Positions 26,892-34,640 of a stretch of DNA of 49,079 bases are shown here, piece by piece. The notes under the pieces were generated by a model. That model searched no databases, had not been told where the DNA came from, and worked only from the letters and a program-made list of their open reading frames with translations. A program made the position numbers and the translations under genes. Source of the DNA: an uncultured Acetobacteraceae bacterium. Lineage in GTDB: Bacteria > Pseudomonadota > Alphaproteobacteria > Acetobacterales > Acetobacteraceae. How positions within the stretch are numbered: position 1 is the first letter of the stretch; each line of letters starts with the position of its first letter. Where the stretch lies: positions 1 through 49,079 of the forward strand of contig CALMVT010000088.1 of NCBI GenBank assembly GCA_937873175.1. Reading direction: 5' to 3'.

Positions 26892-27349
26892 GCGAAGCAT
26901 CCTGCTCCGGCGCCGTCGGCAACCCGCGGCCTAGCCGCTCCGTCTGCCGCGCCCGCTCGACACTCTGCGCTTCGCGTTCAGGGCGCTGGCTTCACGCCTG
27001 ACTGAGTGCCCTTCCAGCGATGCCGCGCCGTGACGGCTCCGGGCAGCGGTCACGAAGCCCCAATGCCCGCGTCGGACGCCACAAGCCATCATCATACCCC
27101 CTCCGGCGGGGCTTATGACCGGCAAGCCTCGGCGGTCCTGAGCCATTCTTCCGACTCGTTGAGGGTGAGATCAGGGGCAGGATCATGCCACTTACATCCA
27201 GGTGCCTCCACAGCTCACCTGACCGGACACAAAACAAGGTCCGCAAGCTAATTCTGGTATGTCAATGTCAATTTTTATACTTGCCGCATGAAACCGTGTG
27301 TGTGACGGTCCCGCAGCATCGAGATGGCGGATAGCTGTTGTGGGGGCAG
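26892..27349. other. Intergenic region with possible relic sequence
   Basis: About 450 bases. The first part has a GCGGC-cta-GCCGC hairpin (26926-26938) with no T-run. Bases 27000-27246 read an open frame of 84 codons on the minus strand with no matching ribosome site or recognisable domain; it may be the trace of a lost mobile element, but I cannot support that. The last 100 bases are AT-rich, with TGTCAA twice and a TATACT hexamer, and probably hold the glycosyltransferase promoter. Confidence 0.45.
27276..27281 (+). promoter_or_regulatory. Candidate -10 element (TATACT) of the glycosyltransferase promoter
   Basis: TATACT sits 69 bases before the GTG start in an AT-rich stretch. A matching -35 is weak (TCTGGT with 17-base spacing). 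Low confidence. Confidence 0.25.
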
Positions 27350-29395
27350 GTGATCTCCAAACACAAAAAGCTCGACATCCCCGTGCCGTGGCCGGCCACA
27401 ACGGTTTCCAACGAGCCGGAGCGTTCAAAACCCTTTTCTGAATTCGGCTTCAAGGATTGGCCATGGGAAGCCGTGTGCGGCCCGAAGTTGCCCCAATCGC
27501 GTCCGGACGGAACCGCATGGCCCTGTGTGTCCGTCATCACGTTGACCCACCAGGCAAACGCGGCCGAGCGGACGCGACTGTCCGTCCGCCATCAAGCCTA
27601 TCCGAACCTGGACCCCATCACCGTCACGCTTGAAGCGGGCGAGCAGCCCCGTTCAGCGTTGCGCCGTGCTAGCGTGGCCGCACGGGGGGCGTTCGTGGTC
27701 CTGCTCGCGGATGGCGAGATGCTGGCGCCCGGCGGGCTGGCCGCTGCGTGCCTGATCCAGTCCACGGACGGCGCGACAGCGGTGGCCGGGATGCGCATCG
27801 GCTTCGGCCCGTCGGGGGTCAGCACCGTTGACGTGATCGACGCTTGCGCACCGGAATGGCTCAACCCCCAGGCGCTGCCGGGTCCCGACCTGTTGATGGC
27901 GCACACCGTGTTCGAGCGGCACGTCCTGGGCGACGCCGCGGCGGGCGACGCCCCCCTGCGCTTGTCGGTGATGGGCCGGCCCATGGCGCTGCAGCCCGAG
28001 CCTGAGACTGCCGGACTGCCGGGGATGGCGCTGTCGGTTGCCGCGCTGACGGATGGCGGCGCCGGCGGGGGGGCGAGCATCGCGGACCGGCGCTTGACCG
28101 ACGCGCTGCGGCTGGCGGGCCACCAGGTGCGCGTCGTCCCCTTGACGCGCGGCGCTTCGGTTGTCACCGCCGAGTGGGTGGACGAATTTCCCGCCGCCGA
28201 GGCCGCGATCGCTGCCGGCGGCTTCGACCTGGTGCTGGCCGGCAACATCCACGGCGCGACCCGGCGCGCGGATGTGCTCGCGCGCATGCACGCCCATGCC
28301 CCGGTCGCCGCCATCACCCATGACCTGTTCCTGCTGACCGGCCGCTGCGACATGCCGTTCGATTGCGCGCTGATCCACGACCGCTGCACGAGCGCCTGCC
28401 CCACGCCCACCCACTACCCTTATTTGGCGCCGAACCGGATCGAGGCGGCGTGGGAAGGCAAGCGCGCGTTCCTGCGGTCGGACCCGCCGCCGCTGCTGCT
28501 CGCCAACTCCCATTGGGCGGCGGCATTCATCCGCACGGTGGTCGGGTCCGCGCTCGGCGCGATCGTGCGGCGGATCGACCTCGCGTTCCCGACCCAGGTG
28601 TTCCGGCCCCACGATCGCGCGGAAGCGCGTGCGGCGCTCGGCCTGCCCAAGGATGACGTGCTGATCATGTTCGCCGCCGCCAACGCGGATGATCCGCGCA
28701 AAGGGTTCCTGGACATGCTGCCCAGCCTGCACGCGGTTGCCCGTCCCGGCGTCGGTTTCGTCGTGATCGGCCGGATCGACCATCCGGAACGGCTCGACCT
28801 GCCCAACCTGTTCGCCCCCGGCCCCATCGCCAATGAAGGGCGGCTGGCGCTGTGGTTCGCCGCCTGCGACCTGCATGTGACCACCAGCCGCTATGAAACG
28901 CTCGGCATGACGCCGATCGAGGCGGGGCTTTGCGGCACGCCGACCGTTGCATACCGCCAGACCGGGCTGTCCACGGCCGTGATCGACGGCGTGTCCGGGT
29001 CCCTGGTCGATCCAAACCCGGCGGCGTGCGCACAGGAGATCGCGCGGCTGGTGGACGACGCGGGCGCGCGGCATGCGCTCGGGGCCTGGGGGCGGATCGC
29101 GCTCGAAGCGCGGCACAGCCACGCGGCGAGCTACCTCAGCCTGCTTGCCGCATTGCGGGCGCATGGGCTGGTGCCGCCCGCGGCGCCACGCGGACGGGTG
29201 CGGTTCGACCCGGCGGTCGTGCGGACGTTTGCTGGTGCGGCCGACCCGGCCCCGTGCGCGTCCGGCATCGTGCGCGCCCGGCCCCGGCGGCTGGTCCAGC
29301 TTGCACGCCGCGCGAAGCATGCGGTCTTGGGCCGCAAGCTGCCGCTGTGGGTGCGGCGCGCGGCTTGGATGCTGAAAACGGCGCGGGGCCGCTGA
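27350..29395 (+). CDS. Glycosyltransferase with degenerate GT2-like N-terminus and GT4 domain
   Basis: 681 residues from GTG 27350 with a G-rich site just upstream; TTG 27338 is an alternative. Residues 50-200 look like a reduced GT2 fold: CVSVITLTHQANAAERTRLS, ASVAARGAFVVLLADGEMLA. There is a single D-G-E in place of the usual D-x-D, and the domain is cut short. Residues 220-630 are GT4: LALAGHQVRV-type start (ADRRLTDALRLAGHQVRVVP), PVAAITHDLFLLTGRCDMPF, DDVLIMFAAANADDPRKGFL, HVTTSRYETLGMTPIEAGLC and GTPTVAYRQTGLSTAVIDGV. The cluster of Cys and His in the middle (TGRCDMPFDCALIHDRCTSACP) could bind metal. It probably elongates a surface glycan. It is a single gene, 31 bases from a convergent CoA-transferase. 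Confidence 0.85.
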   Translation: MISKHKKLDIPVPWPATTVSNEPERSKPFSEFGFKDWPWEAVCGPKLPQSRPDGTAWPCVSVITLTHQANAAERTRLSVRHQAYPNLDPITVTLEAGEQPRSALRRASVAARGAFVVLLADGEMLAPGGLAAACLIQSTDGATAVAGMRIGFGPSGVSTVDVIDACAPEWLNPQALPGPDLLMAHTVFERHVLGDAAAGDAPLRLSVMGRPMALQPEPETAGLPGMALSVAALTDGGAGGGASIADRRLTDALRLAGHQVRVVPLTRGASVVTAEWVDEFPAAEAAIAAGGFDLVLAGNIHGATRRADVLARMHAHAPVAAITHDLFLLTGRCDMPFDCALIHDRCTSACPTPTHYPYLAPNRIEAAWEGKRAFLRSDPPPLLLANSHWAAAFIRTVVGSALGAIVRRIDLAFPTQVFRPHDRAEARAALGLPKDDVLIMFAAANADDPRKGFLDMLPSLHAVARPGVGFVVIGRIDHPERLDLPNLFAPGPIANEGRLALWFAACDLHVTTSRYETLGMTPIEAGLCGTPTVAYRQTGLSTAVIDGVSGSLVDPNPAACAQEIARLVDDAGARHALGAWGRIALEARHSHAASYLSLLAALRAHGLVPPAAPRGRVRFDPAVVRTFAGAADPAPCASGIVRARPRRLVQLARRAKHAVLGRKLPLWVRRAAWMLKTARGR

Positions 29396-29426: not shown

Positions 29427-30791
29427 TCAAGCGCTGCCCGGCCAGGCTGGAAGGGACGCCCCCAATGGCCCCGCCGCACGGTCCCAACGCATCACCGCGG
29501 CCCCCACGGAGGCGGGCGGCCGCAATCGCATCAGCGGCCCCCAAACCGTCGCCTCACGCCCTTCGGCGTAATCGGCGTCCCCCGGCTTGCCGAGTGCCCC
29601 GCCGCCGTCCTCCCCGGCATCGGCGGCGCTCCCGGCCAGCAGCGCCGCGGTGCGCGCCAGGGACACGCGGGTTTGCGAGCCGCGGTCGCGTGCCAGCCCG
29701 AGCGCAACCGCGGCGGCCACCGTGTAGCCGGTCGCATGGTCCAGCGCCTGCACCGGCAACGGCACCGGCCGGTCTGCGCCGGCTTGCACCATGCCCCGGT
29801 GCGCGATCCCGGCGCTCATCTGCACCAGGCTGTCAAACCCGCGGCGGCCGGCCCAGGGTCCGGTCCAGCCATAGGCGTCCAGGCATACGTCCACCAAGCC
29901 GGGCCGCACCCGGCGTCGCGTGGCCGGGTCCAGGCCCAACCCGTCCAGCGCGCCGGGACGGTAGCCATGGACCAGGACATCCGTTTCCGCCAACAGCGCA
30001 AGCAAGCGCTCCCGACCGGACGGACCCTTCAGGTCGAGCCTGGCGCAAGCCTTGCCGAGCGTGACATCCGGCTCAAGGGCCGGCTCGTCCCAATCCGGCG
30101 GGTCGATCCGAAGCACCTCCGCCCCGAACCCGGCCAGGAACCGCGTCGCGGTGGGTCCAGCCAGCACGCGGGTCAGGTCCAGCACGCGGACGCCGGCCAG
30201 CGGGCGCGACGGGTCCTGGGGTACGCGGGAACGGCCGCCGCCGCCGGTGATCTCCGTCCAGGCAAGCGGCTCGGTCGTCACGGCCCGGCCCTGCGCATGC
30301 GCGCGCCAATCGGCGAGCGAGCGCATGGCCGCCGCGCAGCCCCCGCGCGCCACCACCTCCGCTTCCAGCGCATCCGCCTTCCAAGCCCGCACGGCGCCCT
30401 GCACGGCATCGCGGTCCGGTTCGACGCCGAGCGCCGCAAGCGCGGCCGCGCGGTGCCGGGGCGCGTTGGTGTGCAGCCGTATCCACCCGTCCGCTGCCTG
30501 GTAGTCGCCGGCAACTGGGTCCCAGGCCGGCGGCGCGGCCCAGCCATCAGGCTTGAACGAGGTCCCGAACCAAAACGAGGCAAGCCGCCGGTCCACCCGC
30601 ACCTTTGGCCGCCGCGACCCGGCCATGTTCGCCACGGCCAGCGCCGCGGCACCGACTGAGGCCGCGGCGAGGTCGCTGACGGCAAACACCGAGGGCAGGC
30701 TGCCCTCGCCCTCGAACGCCACATCGGCCAGCGCGTCGCTGGAACCGCCCAGCCCGGTCCAGATGTCGCGCAGGAACCCGGTTGCCTGCAT
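29427..30791 (-). CDS. CaiB/BaiF-type CoA-transferase with permuted halves
   Basis: 454 residues from ATG 30791 (GGAGAAG 6 bases upstream). The part from residue 197 on is the canonical family N-terminus: RPLAGVRVLDLTRVLAGPTA, FGAEVLRID, DVLVHGYRPGALDGLGLDP, and LPVQALDHATGYTVAAAVAL with the catalytic Asp at 351. Yet it stops about 100 residues later. Residues 30-180 match instead what normally follows that Asp: an Asp-motif echo (VFAVSDLAAASVGAAALAVA) and a C-terminal-like YQAADGWIRLHTNAPRHRAA block. The halves thus appear in swapped order. Class III enzymes move CoA between carboxylic acids. It is the third gene of an operon with a hotdog thioesterase and an MFS carrier. Confidence 0.85.
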   Translation of the reverse strand: MQATGFLRDIWTGLGGSSDALADVAFEGEGSLPSVFAVSDLAAASVGAAALAVANMAGSRRPKVRVDRRLASFWFGTSFKPDGWAAPPAWDPVAGDYQAADGWIRLHTNAPRHRAAALAALGVEPDRDAVQGAVRAWKADALEAEVVARGGCAAAMRSLADWRAHAQGRAVTTEPLAWTEITGGGGRSRVPQDPSRPLAGVRVLDLTRVLAGPTATRFLAGFGAEVLRIDPPDWDEPALEPDVTLGKACARLDLKGPSGRERLLALLAETDVLVHGYRPGALDGLGLDPATRRRVRPGLVDVCLDAYGWTGPWAGRRGFDSLVQMSAGIAHRGMVQAGADRPVPLPVQALDHATGYTVAAAVALGLARDRGSQTRVSLARTAALLAGSAADAGEDGGGALGKPGDADYAEGREATVWGPLMRLRPPASVGAAVMRWDRAAGPLGASLPAWPGSA

Positions 30792-30823
30792 GGCAGCTTC
30801 TCCTCGTCGGGGCGCCCCGTCCA

Positions 30824-31237
30824 TCAGGGGATGGGATAAAGGATGATCTGGGTGCACCGGAACAGCGCGATGGACTTGCCGGTGGCCTCGTTGCGAACCG
30901 TTGCGTCCCAAACCTGCGTCGTGCGCCCACCGTGCAGCAGCCGCGCTTCGCATGACACGCCACCTTGCCGGGCGGTGCCGATGAAGTTGGCCTTCAGCTC
31001 GGCCGTGGTGAAGCTGGTAGCGCCCGGCGGCAGCGCCGCCAAGCAGCCGAAGCCGCAAGCGGTGTCGGCCAGCGCGACAACCGTGGCCGCGTGGAGATAG
31101 CCGTTCGCGGCCAGGTGGTGCGCCTGGAGCTCGAACCGGCCCCGCGCCAGACCCGGCGGCGCGTCCGTCCACTCGAACCCGAGCAGGCCGGGCAGGCCCA
31201 CTGCTTGCCGGTCTGCAAACCTTGCGGCGTCGCTCAT
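30824..31237 (-). CDS. PaaI-family hotdog thioesterase
   Basis: 137 residues from ATG 31237, six bases after the MFS stop. One hotdog domain: HHLAANGYLHAATVVALADT has the N-G-x-x-H...A-D-T pattern of the PaaI/YbgC class (the Asp is the general base), and TSFTTAELKANFIGTARQGG is the core strand. RTTQVWDATVRNEATGKSIA and a final LFRCTQIIL strand complete the fold. It hydrolyses an acyl-CoA. Located between a carrier and a CoA-transferase gene, it probably recycles CoA in the same route; the acyl group is unknown. Confidence 0.88.
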   Translation of the reverse strand: MSDAARFADRQAVGLPGLLGFEWTDAPPGLARGRFELQAHHLAANGYLHAATVVALADTACGFGCLAALPPGATSFTTAELKANFIGTARQGGVSCEARLLHGGRTTQVWDATVRNEATGKSIALFRCTQIILYPIP

Positions 31238-31243
31238 GCTGCA

Positions 31244-32509
31244 TCAAGCCTTTGCTGCGGGTTGGGGGGCATCCGGCCGGGCGCGTGAGGCGGCGGCCAG
31301 GATCGTTGCGGCAAGAAGGTTCGCGCCGGCGCTCGCGAGGACCGGCAGGGTGTAGCTGCCGCCAATGTCGTAGGCGAAACCCGCGGCGCTTGGGCCGATC
31401 AACGTGCCGACCGCCACGCTCGTGTAAAGCAGGCCGATGAGGGCGCCGATGTTGCGTCCGCCAAAACAATCCATGACCACCGCGGGCAGCACGGCGACCC
31501 ACCCGCCGTAGAACACGCCAAAGGCGAATGCGAAGGCGGCCAGCTCCCATGCCTCGTCCAAGGCCGCCCAAGCGGCCAGGGTCAGCGCCATCCCCACGAA
31601 CATCAGCAACAGGGATTGCAGGCGGCCCATCCGATCCGCCAAGCCGCCAATCGCGAAGCGTCCCGCAGTGCTGCCGATGCCGATCACGCCCAGCAGCATA
31701 ACAGCCGACGGTTGCGGGACGCCGTGATCCAGGGCGTACGGGACGAGGTGGACGAACGGCATGAACACGCCGAACGAGCAGGCCAGGCAGGCGGCGTACA
31801 AACCGAGGAACTGCCGGGTCCGCACGGCGTCGCGGACCGTCATCCCCGCCGCGCGTTGCGCCACCCCCGGCTGGGCGCGCGGCGCGGGAGGATCGCCATC
31901 CGGCGCCAAGCCGCGGCTGTGCGGGTCATCGATGATCAGGAACGCCATCCCAGCCCCGATGATCGCGGCAAAGGCGCCCAGGGCAAGGTAGGCTTCGCGC
32001 CATCCCAGCGCTTCGATCAAGGCCGCGGCGCAGGGCGGCATGACAAGCGTGCCAACCCCGATGCCGCTGACCGCGAGGCCCGACGCGAGGCCCCGCCGAC
32101 GGGTGAACCAGCGCTGCACCGCGCCGATTGCGGGCACATAGGAGGTGCCGATGCCAAGCCCGACCCCTAGCCCGTAGGCCAAGCAAACCTCCGGCAGCGT
32201 GCGCGCCGCGCCGGCTGCCGCCAGGCCCAAGCCCGTCATCAGCATTCCCGCCACCGCCAAGCGCCGAGCGCCCCAACGGTCCGCAAGCGGGCCGCTGACG
32301 ACGCCAAAGCCGAAATACAGGAAGCCCGCCAACGAGAACACCAGGGACACCGAACCGCGCGACGCCGCGAACTCCGCCTGCAAGGGCTTGAGGAATGTGC
32401 TGAACGTGTAGGCGCTGCCGAATCCCACGAACATGACCGCGAATGCCGCGGCAACGACGACCCAGCCGTAGAAGATGCCCGGCCGGACGTGGGCGGCTCT
32501 GCCGCTCAC
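31244..32509 (-). CDS. MFS transporter, OFA/monocarboxylate-type
   Basis: 421 residues from GTG 32509, twelve membrane helices. IFYGWVVVAAAFAVMFVGFG is the signature opening of the oxalate/formate antiporter and monocarboxylate porter branch; SLVFSLAGFLYFGFGVVSGP and LADRWGARRLA (the MFS motif A) follow. VQRWFTRRRGLASGLAVSGI is helix 5 with the conserved G-x-G pattern, and GRFAIGGLADRMGRLQ repeats motif A in the second half. It likely takes up a carboxylate, which the CoA-transferase and thioesterase behind it then process. The three genes are spaced 6 and 32 bases. Confidence 0.9.
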   Translation of the reverse strand: MSGRAAHVRPGIFYGWVVVAAAFAVMFVGFGSAYTFSTFLKPLQAEFAASRGSVSLVFSLAGFLYFGFGVVSGPLADRWGARRLAVAGMLMTGLGLAAAGAARTLPEVCLAYGLGVGLGIGTSYVPAIGAVQRWFTRRRGLASGLAVSGIGVGTLVMPPCAAALIEALGWREAYLALGAFAAIIGAGMAFLIIDDPHSRGLAPDGDPPAPRAQPGVAQRAAGMTVRDAVRTRQFLGLYAACLACSFGVFMPFVHLVPYALDHGVPQPSAVMLLGVIGIGSTAGRFAIGGLADRMGRLQSLLLMFVGMALTLAAWAALDEAWELAAFAFAFGVFYGGWVAVLPAVVMDCFGGRNIGALIGLLYTSVAVGTLIGPSAAGFAYDIGGSYTLPVLASAGANLLAATILAAASRARPDAPQPAAKA

Positions 32510-32818: not shown

Positions 32819-34399
32819 TCATTCCGGCAGCCCTGCTTTCCGCAAGCCTTCCGCAAAGGTGGAAACGTCCTCCGGCCGGCGGAGCGGGAGCCAGTTCTTG
32901 AGGTTGGAGATGCGCAGGGCGGGATCGAGCTGGCGCAAATGGCGCATCGCCCGCCGCCCTTCGTCCACCCGGCCGGCAAGCGCATGGCTCGCCGCGATGA
33001 TGCCGACCACCATCAGAAAGCTCGGCAAGTCCCTGAATGCCTTCTCGGCCCAGGATGACGCGGCGCCGGAACGCCCCGCCAACAGGTATGCCAGCGCCAT
33101 CCCGGCTTGCATCCGATACAGTTCCGGGTCCAATGGGCTTAGGCGCATTGCCCGCTCGAAGTGCTCGATCGCCGCGCCCGGCTCACCGCGCCAGGCCCGC
33201 AGGAAGCCGCCGAGGAACCAAGCGGACGCCAGGTTCGGATCGAGCACCAACGCCCTGTCGAGCAGCGCGATGCCGCCATCAAGGTCGCCGGCGAGATGGC
33301 CGAGCGCATGGCCGCTCCTGGCGAGGGCAACCGCGTCGTACTGGCCCAGCTTCACAGCCCGGCGGGCCAATCGAACCCCCTCGGCAACCTCCCGGGGGCG
33401 ATCGGTCATCCAACCGTTGACCTTACGCCAGAAATGGCACCACGCCGCCATGCCGTAGGCCGACGCGAAATCCGGATCGAGCCGCATCGCCGTGCGGAAC
33501 AACGGCAACGCCTCGTTGATGCCCTCCCTGGTTCCCCCCTGCATGTTCGCCATTCCGCGCAGATAATGGTCGTAGGCATCGAGGCTTTCGGTCGGCTTGC
33601 GCTTCGCGCGTTCGATTTCCGCCCGCTCCAGTTGCGGCGCGATGGCGCCGACGACGCTCGCGGCCACCTGATCCTGCAGCTCGAAGATGTCGTCGAGAGT
33701 ACCCTCGAAACGCTCTGCCCAGAGATCCACCCCGGTTGCAGCATCGACGAGTTGCCCCGTGATGCGCACCCGGTTCGCTGCCTTGCGCACGCTGCCTTCC
33801 AGCACGTAGCGGACGCCCAGCTCATGGCCCACCTGCTTCACGTCCACCGCCCGGCCCTTGAAGGTGAAGCTTGAGTTGCGCGCGATGACGAATAGCCAGC
33901 GGACGCGCGACAAGGCCGCGATGATGTCCTCCACCATGCCGTCGGCGAAGTATTCCTGTTCGGGATCGCCACTCAGGTTCTGGAACGGCAAGACCGCAAT
34001 GGAGGGTTTGCCGGGAAGGGGCAGCGTTTGTGCGGGTTCACCCGGCGCTGCGGACTCGGTTTTCAGGGAACGGACGCCATCGAACGAAGGTGCTTCCCTG
34101 ACCTCGCCAACGAAGCGGAACCCTTTGCGGGAAACCGTGCGGATCAGGCGTTGTTGCTCGCCGGTGTCGCCGATCGCCTTGCGCACCGCATTGACATGGC
34201 TGGCCAGGGTCGATTCGGAGACGATGCGGCCATTCCACACCGCGTCGAGAAGGCCGTCCTTGCTGACGACGCGCTCGCGGTTCTGCACCAGATGGACCAG
34301 CAGGTCGAAGACTTGCGGGCCGACCGAGATCGCCTCGAAGCCCCGCGTGAGCTCCCGACGTTCAGGGTCAAGCACATAATTCTCGAATGCGTACGACAC
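32819..34399 (-). CDS. Winged-helix regulator with TolB-like and TPR domains (CadC/adenylate-cyclase-like)
   Basis: 526 residues from GTG 34399 (GGAG 7 bases upstream; the frame is open to 34531). Residues 1-100 are an OmpR/PhoB-type winged helix: YAFENYVLDPERRELTRGFE, VGPQVFDLLVHLVQNRERVV and SESTLASHVNAVRKAIGDTG, the recognition helix. Residues 125-290 are the TolB-like domain: KPSIAVLPFQNLSGDPEQEY, FADGMVEDIIAALSRV, VRYVLEGSVRKAANRVRITG. Residues 300-520 are TPR-type repeats (..AYDHYLRGMANMQGG, ASAWFLGGFLRAWRGEPGAA). The plan matches many rhizobial and acetobacterial proteins annotated as adenylate cyclase or CadC-like, but has no cyclase domain and no membrane helix. It is divergent from the NmrA-cupin pair, which is a natural regulatory target. 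Confidence 0.88.
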   Translation of the reverse strand: MSYAFENYVLDPERRELTRGFEAISVGPQVFDLLVHLVQNRERVVSKDGLLDAVWNGRIVSESTLASHVNAVRKAIGDTGEQQRLIRTVSRKGFRFVGEVREAPSFDGVRSLKTESAAPGEPAQTLPLPGKPSIAVLPFQNLSGDPEQEYFADGMVEDIIAALSRVRWLFVIARNSSFTFKGRAVDVKQVGHELGVRYVLEGSVRKAANRVRITGQLVDAATGVDLWAERFEGTLDDIFELQDQVAASVVGAIAPQLERAEIERAKRKPTESLDAYDHYLRGMANMQGGTREGINEALPLFRTAMRLDPDFASAYGMAAWCHFWRKVNGWMTDRPREVAEGVRLARRAVKLGQYDAVALARSGHALGHLAGDLDGGIALLDRALVLDPNLASAWFLGGFLRAWRGEPGAAIEHFERAMRLSPLDPELYRMQAGMALAYLLAGRSGAASSWAEKAFRDLPSFLMVVGIIAASHALAGRVDEGRRAMRHLRQLDPALRISNLKNWLPLRRPEDVSTFAEGLRKAGLPE

Positions 34400-34640
34400 G
34401 TCGGCGCTCCATGATCCCGTGCGCGCGTCGCCGGGCCGAGTGGGCCGAGTGCCCCGGCATGCCATCGATAGCACGGCCGCCGCCGCCGGGCACAGGACGC
34501 TGCATCGCTGCCGTCTTGGACGAATAACCAAGGTAAACCCAACAGCAACTCAAGGCCGCCGCAAGGACTCGCTGCCGACCCGCAGGCATTCTCCGCGCCG
34601 TGGACCGCAATGGATGCGGTCGGTAGGGCCGGAGGATGAA

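Follow-up and report, generated by a model that had tools for sequence, protein, structure and literature searches.

The class III, or family III, CoA-transferases, among them formyl-CoA transferase, YfdE/YfdW, CaiB, SUGCT and Mct, are described as mutually threaded dimers; by what route such links arise in evolution, and for what reason, is an open question. In the canonical layout a small domain lies between a Rossmann half and a C-terminal tail, connected by two linkers. According to excerpts of two published accounts, the active site of the classical enzymes is built by two subunits, from the Rossmann domain of one and the small domain of the other (PMC9196870, PMC3720670), whilst helix α7, which contains the Asp165 that binds the CoA thiol, and helix α8 of both subunits meet at the dimer centre (PMC9196870). 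The α-methylacyl-CoA racemases (MCR, FAR) share the superfamily fold and also have the classical order. BbsEF (9fn0, by its PDB title) combines a pair of family III chains, so that the two halves of such a dimer need not be alike.

The protein described here is a real and widespread rearrangement of this enzyme class. It is encoded in a stretch of 49,079 nucleotides from an uncultured Acetobacteraceae bacterium (GCA_937873175.1, contig CALMVT010000088.1), referred to below as the window. Its Rossmann half, catalytic aspartate, small domain and tail are all homologous to those of the class III enzymes. In contrast to these enzymes, the small domain is N-terminal rather than inserted between the Rossmann half and the tail, the helix unit bearing the catalytic aspartate occurs twice and a single connection joins the small to the large domain; BbsEF, with its two separate chains, also differs from this single permuted chain. 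No report of a permuted or rearranged class III CoA-transferase was present among the matches listed in a search of the largely freely accessible literature.

The gene and its neighbourhood

The 454-residue reading frame begins with the ATG at 30791 and ends with a stop codon at 29427-29429 (Table 1). Extended upstream the frame would comprise 714 residues, but the ATG at 30791 is accompanied by an AGGAG sequence and a nearby thioesterase gene. Membership of the CaiB/BaiF superfamily is clear, with a CoA_transf_3 (PF02515) score of 149.1 bits against a gathering cut-off of 23.3. The thioesterase gene is probably an operon partner of the CoA-transferase gene in the window; this was the only one of 101 loci searched with tblastn at which a thioesterase lay beside the gene, and no conserved operon is supported. 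Clustering of neighbouring reading frames across the loci was dominated by antisense frames. Together with the thioesterase gene, the transporter gene forms an apparent operon upstream (30824-32509, minus strand). Farther along the same strand, at 32819-34531, lies a gene for a protein with an N-terminal DNA-binding Trans_reg_C domain and TPR repeats, probably a transcription regulator, and a 685-residue frame with a group 1 glycosyltransferase domain (27338-29395, plus strand) is convergent with the CoA-transferase gene. The genome from which the window derives holds 11 further CaiB/BaiF matches, one of which (C499:8092-8844) adjoins a stretch that translates as X.

Table 1. Positions in the window of the permuted CoA-transferase gene, its parts and its upstream neighbours
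Feature	Position	Strand	Basis
Whole gene, permuted CaiB/BaiF-superfamily CoA-transferase, 454 aa	29427..30791	-	ORF, PF02515 E 2.3e-43, AF2 model
Residues 1-27, two short helices and a strand	30711..30791	-	DSSP of model
Residues 37-76, duplicated Asp-helix/strand/helix unit (echo of α7-β-α8)	30564..30683	-	Profile to classical 156-196; DSSP H38-55, E64-67, H68-76
Asp40 codon, echo of catalytic Asp, not conserved	30672..30674	-	D 96/217, E 44/217
Residues 79-176, linker and small domain, relocated N-terminally	30264..30557	-	Profile to classical 228-323; Pfam match in L109
Residues 177-195, strand and connector from small domain to Rossmann domain	30207..30263	-	Strand 177-183 in full-length model, not in N-part alone
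Residues 196-347, N-terminal Rossmann half (RPLAGVRVLDL...)	29751..30206	-	Pfam 1-207; classical 1-201
Residues 348-387, genuine Asp-helix/strand/helix unit	29631..29750	-	DSSP H349-367, E371-377, H378-386
Asp351 codon, catalytic aspartate by homology	29739..29741	-	D 81/81, 214/217; within stretch aligned to CaiB-family chains
Residues 388-411, loop at classical small-domain site	29559..29630	-	Classical 200-330 without counterpart here
Residues 412-454, ordinary C-terminal tail completing Rossmann domain	29430..29558	-	Profile to classical 330-367; VIA-align
Shine-Dalgarno-like AGGAG	30800..30804	-	8 nt 5' of ATG, read directly
4HBT thioesterase gene, upstream	30824..31237	-	PF03061 E 1.7e-14; 32 nt before ATG
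MFS transporter gene, next upstream	31244..32509	-	PF07690 E 1.8e-50

Order of the parts along the chain

In classical numbering it is close to certain that the chain runs from 142-325 (the helix unit of the catalytic aspartate and the small domain) to 1-200 (the Rossmann half with its own Asp helix) and then to 330-366 (the tail). The original prediction, which described a CaiB-type protein with its halves in swapped order, placed the usual N-terminal block only from about residue 197, and in agreement with this positions 1-207 of the 366 in the CoA_transf_3 profile match residues 198-390 (E 2.3e-43 for the whole protein). The solved class III enzymes likewise match from about residue 190 onwards, through their N-terminal 200-odd residues; the sole other trace among them is an insignificant match between residues 96-167 and residues 253-323 of 5yit. 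Residues 1-190 alone give no Pfam match up to E 10.

The identity of this N-terminal part emerged from a comparison of profiles (hhalign) built from 142 permuted relatives and 70 classical sequences. Residues 23-170 align with classical positions 142-323 (E 1.1e-10), with a score of 77.6 against 23.2 for the best of 100 column shuffles and an E of 0.77 for the reversed alignment. Residues 30-180 had been predicted to be what normally follows the catalytic aspartate, and the N-terminal 190 residues do align with C-terminal regions of CaiB. Two shorter stretches find the same places on their own, residues 27-91 at classical 156-196 (E 2.4e-4) and residues 83-184 at classical 228-323 (E 1.8e-8), in each case with none of 100 shuffles scoring as high. 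The C-terminal part aligns with classical 1-201 (E 9e-48, a value given without a shuffle control), and with residues 399-453 as input residues 412-449 align with classical 330-367 (E 9.2e-5, again with none of 100 shuffles as high). Reversed profiles of the N-terminal part, echo, small domain and tail gave E values of 0.17 or worse.

The canonical layout is therefore absent, since the small domain, at about residues 79-176, precedes the Rossmann half. Nor does the chain contain two full copies of the enzyme, as a tandem fusion would: it has one Rossmann half, one small domain and one tail, and only about classical 142-200 is present twice. The swapped order thus holds for the small domain and the Rossmann half, but the tail at 412-449 has not moved. 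In a distant relative with a 475-residue frame (L109) Pfam itself reports the rearranged order, model positions 151-314 coming first (E 1.4e-8) and 1-210 second (E 2.6e-46). Two Pfam stretches were found in five of the ten distant relatives scanned, a scan that does not give the position of the second one.

Predicted structure

Separate structural alignment of the two parts to chains of the family, a check of the kind that the original prediction had proposed with formyl-CoA transferase, relates both of them to it. The AlphaFold2 model of the full protein, built with 38 sequences, has a pLDDT of 92.7 and a pTM of 0.94. In VIA-align about residues 193 to 454 extend over the family III chains almost from end to end, with 242-260 residues aligned and Z scores of 19.3-23.2 over the 49 family rows listed; the next row is the unrelated CoaB (Z 7.2). 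Residues 195 to 454 lie on residues 2 to 413 of 1t4c, and the comparison of residues 194 to 454 with 9zav_B (Z 23.2, 258 residues aligned, rmsd 2.8) comprises the large domain together with the tail. The model has a complete large domain, with no small domain at the usual place.

Folded alone with 48 sequences, the N-terminal part has a pLDDT of 87.5 and a pTM of 0.65. All 47 VIA rows listed for it are family III or α-methylacyl-CoA racemase chains (Z 5.9-9.2, rmsd 5.3-6.9); a Z below 8 says little on its own, and the weight rests on the uniform family identity of these rows. The highest Z, 9.2, belongs to the racemase 2g04, tied with others within 1. Foldseek gave nothing for this part at E ≤ 0.001 (best E 1.7e-3), and all 50 rows shown belong to the family. 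Most rows in VIA-align start at chain residues 16-23, and the model allows the possibility that residues 1-27 might be a remnant of α1-β2 from a lost first Rossmann domain. A solved structure of a permuted member was not found in the PDB, whose sequences match significantly over the Rossmann half only.

The catalytic aspartate and its echo

Asp351, which had been assigned to the catalytic position, occupies it with near-complete conservation, being D in 81 of 81 close relatives and in all but three of 217 permuted sequences. The echo of the Asp motif predicted at residue 40 also exists as a homologous unit, and the two internal units match each other weakly (E 0.004, none of 100 shuffles as high); an earlier comparison of echo and genuine unit, based on a small profile from fewer sequences, had failed. 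Asp40 is D in 61 of the 81 close relatives, and among the 217 sequences the position is D in 96, E in 44, T in 25 and A in 23. As the units are still alike whilst Asp40 is not conserved, the echo is a decayed copy. A role for Asp40 as a second catalytic aspartate was considered and rejected on the same counts.

Conservation extends to other parts of the chain. Position 320 is D or E in 216 of the 217 sequences, and in the small domain D101 (207), H107 (209), N109 (188), H113 (180) and W162 (217) rank with the best conserved of the positions inspected. Judged from the alignment, these five residues are a candidate CoA- or substrate-binding set.

Active site and oligomeric state

On their DSSP make-up in the model, the two helix-strand-helix units are equated with α7-β-α8 of the classical enzymes. 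A single chain carries these central helices twice, along with a single Rossmann domain and a single small domain, and so holds the parts of one active site. It is on balance probable that the rebuilt chain is a CoA-transferase of the class III type, putatively active, in which one chain makes one full active site. The copy-1 helices (38-76) would stand in for α7/α8 of the partner subunit and the small domain would reach the Asp351 site within its own chain, the proposed result being a condensed half-dimer, possibly monomeric or else a non-threaded dimer. The usual chemistry would be expected, with an acyl anhydride on Asp351 giving way to an aspartyl-CoA thioester and CoA then passing to the acceptor acid. 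With the small domain attached through a single connection, the chain forms no ring that could be threaded, and interlocking of the classical kind would be impossible, as no ring can close without the second linker.

A less probable, though still substantial, alternative is a homodimer with exchanged domains, each Asp351 site being covered by the small domain of the other chain, again without a closed ring. Such an arrangement would retain the two-subunit site of the classical enzymes, as excerpts of their descriptions present it (PMC9196870, PMC3720670). Several features of the predicted chain argue against it: as a single chain it is modelled with confidence (pTM 0.94), and it already possesses the central helices in duplicate. 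Strands 79-81 and 177-183, moreover, appear in the full-length model only and are missing when the N-terminal part is folded alone, from which it follows that both parts pack inside one predicted chain.

Residue couplings fit contacts within or between chains equally, and the analysis, with an effective 172 sequences, does not distinguish one chain from two. Plausible strand and helix contacts rank first. Among pairs picked from the top 90, V53-A363 links the echo helix to the genuine helix (8.2 sd), and H113-L350 (5.1 sd), Q98-T357 (5.6), N109-D320 (4.6) and G122-T214 (4.9) link the small domain to the catalytic centre; A37-V347 is a further pair picked between the two parts. Pairs between the N- and C-terminal parts are not enriched, making up 36 of the top 90 and 8 of the top 30 against 50% of all pairs. 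The coupling map likewise lends no support to a pseudo-two-fold symmetry (mirror correlation of -0.04 for α1/α1' and 0.05 for the echo). Among offsets 300-321, the highest mean (0.72 sd, the next being 0.47) is that of 310, which brings echo and genuine unit into register.

Function

Retention of the fold with another activity, such as that of a racemase/epimerase or an isomerase, or with a role as an acyl-CoA-binding sensor, is improbable. The superfamily includes the α-methylacyl-CoA racemases, which also match the Rossmann part, and the thioesterase neighbour might be read in the same direction. Against this stand the aspartate kept in 214 of the 217 sequences and the acidic residue at position 320, together with the YGxxGP...G(F/Y)D...Q block, which we take to be the transferase form rather than the racemase form; motifs typical of the racemases were not seen. 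The preferred assignment thus remains a CoA-transferase, and an organic-acid CoA-transfer step is likely. No characterised member of the permuted group was found.

A possible indication of the substrate comes from relatives of the window protein. A divergent upstream gene for a citrate-synthase-like protein with an N-terminal HTH is present beside 26 of the 80 closest relatives (e.g. L118:4516-5688). Such a gene also occurs at L114, L115 and L118, giving 29 of the 101 loci searched, although L114 repeats L021 and two of the matches cover only the N-terminal part of the protein. Of 73 chosen neighbours, 8 match the Pfam citrate synthase family and 8 match HTH_17, and an Ewingella annotation was seen for this neighbour. 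The HTH part has no match in the genome of the window, where two matches to the C-terminal part only were obtained. The HTH-citrate synthase may be a regulator or a partner enzyme, and could reveal the substrate. A second permuted group (L101-L112 and L116), about 35-46% identical to the window protein, occurs in related genomes; no citrate synthase was found beside its members.

Phylogeny and origin

In a tree of the Rossmann part, one branch separates 39 permuted representatives from 70 classical ones (SH-aLRT 97.7), and in a second tree, from which three long or gappy rows were removed and to which one tandem copy was added, the division is 38 against 69 (SH-aLRT 97.2). These groupings fit a single shared origin of the permuted proteins. 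For the event itself the original prediction had offered either a circular permutation or an incomplete tandem duplication, and the second of these fits better. With classical 142-200 present twice, the rest once and the tail at the end, the layout is what a tandem duplication followed by complementary losses would leave. An ancestral CaiB-like enzyme would have been duplicated in tandem; the first copy would then have been stripped of its tail and most of its Rossmann domain, and the second of its small domain, so as to leave the Asp-helix unit and small domain of copy 1 followed by the Rossmann domain, Asp-helix unit and tail of copy 2.

DddD is a tandem CaiB fusion, and fusions of this kind also occur in the sampled genomes. 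L219 (a 941-residue frame) and L220 (840 residues), both on long branches, carry two family copies per frame, each matching the classical model nearly in full, and represent a plausible type of ancestor. The second copy of L220 adjoins the permuted branch in both quick trees with a support of 92, below 95, whilst the first copy of L220, like the two copies of L219, is placed elsewhere. With a branch length of 2.2 and this support, the placement may be a long-branch effect, and it offers a weak hint of the tandem route. Four relatives (L097-L100) with matches across the junction between the N-terminal and Rossmann parts had been considered as tandem intermediates, but all four turned out to be ORFs of the ordinary classical kind.

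A plain circular permutation, in which the C-terminal half including the tail moved ahead of the N-terminal half, is very improbable. It would account for the gross order, in which the C-side precedes the N-side, and circular permutants may themselves arise through tandem duplication and retain overlaps. Such an event would, however, have carried the tail forward, with the original C-terminus in front, and the tail is unmoved: it is still C-terminal both by profile and by the VIA-align matches, which run to near the chain ends, and the matches of the N-terminal part end between classical 320 and 340. For these reasons a plain circular permutation does not describe this protein.

Distribution

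The permuted layout, for which other species had been suggested as a test, recurs far beyond the window. Similarity to the protein or its N-terminal part yielded 218 loci, comprising 211 distinct sequences, with at least six places in the set twice. The N-terminal part precedes the Rossmann part in 217 of them and the reverse order occurs in none, the exception, L257, being a short frame. A scan with the whole protein gave 424 relatives, some of which may not be permuted; of the 80 that were kept, 75 give a single collinear match. A misassembly, frameshift or chance open frame might be suspected in a draft genome of 624 contigs in which long open frames lie on both strands of this region, but this is refuted by the same order at 217 of 218 loci from many genomes, by the Shine-Dalgarno sequence and by the conservation of residues along the whole protein.

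An HMM of 70 classical sequences was compared with all 218 ORFs, accepting segments up to E 10. The best segment before the Rossmann match starts beyond model position 130 in 206 ORFs; one of the others starts at 123 (123-258, the same region), nine have no such segment, and in two the Rossmann match is not whole. At model positions taken 20 apart, coverage by these segments extends over 140-320, with none at 120 and one at 340, and is gone by 340-360; the segments are strong alone (E < 1e-3) in just nine ORFs. A tail segment was reported in 44 ORFs, always where it would be expected, and 172 ORFs gave no such segment.

Of 398 genomes sampled from the phylum, at least 45 match the N-terminal part, as do at least 61 of 385 from the class to which the window belongs and at least 12 of 369 from another class, all of which are lower bounds because few candidates were scored per genome. 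Permuted ORFs are also carried by plasmids of a Tolypothrix and a Streptomyces; among the matches listed, the plasmid copies, where annotated, are named just 'CoA transferase'.

Implications

Some two hundred bacterial loci thus share one architecture whose order of domains is not apparent from annotation, and alignments or models based on the classical order would misplace the small domain. The family may, tentatively, be regarded as a natural and widespread single-chain version of an obligately interlocked enzyme, with an active site of its own, for which threading would be unneeded and the link dispensable, having been undone once. The same parts without a closed ring would permit a direct comparison of linked and unlinked forms in folding, stability and kinetics. 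Should one chain prove able to fold and to work by itself, the link of the classical dimers would be unneeded for catalysis.
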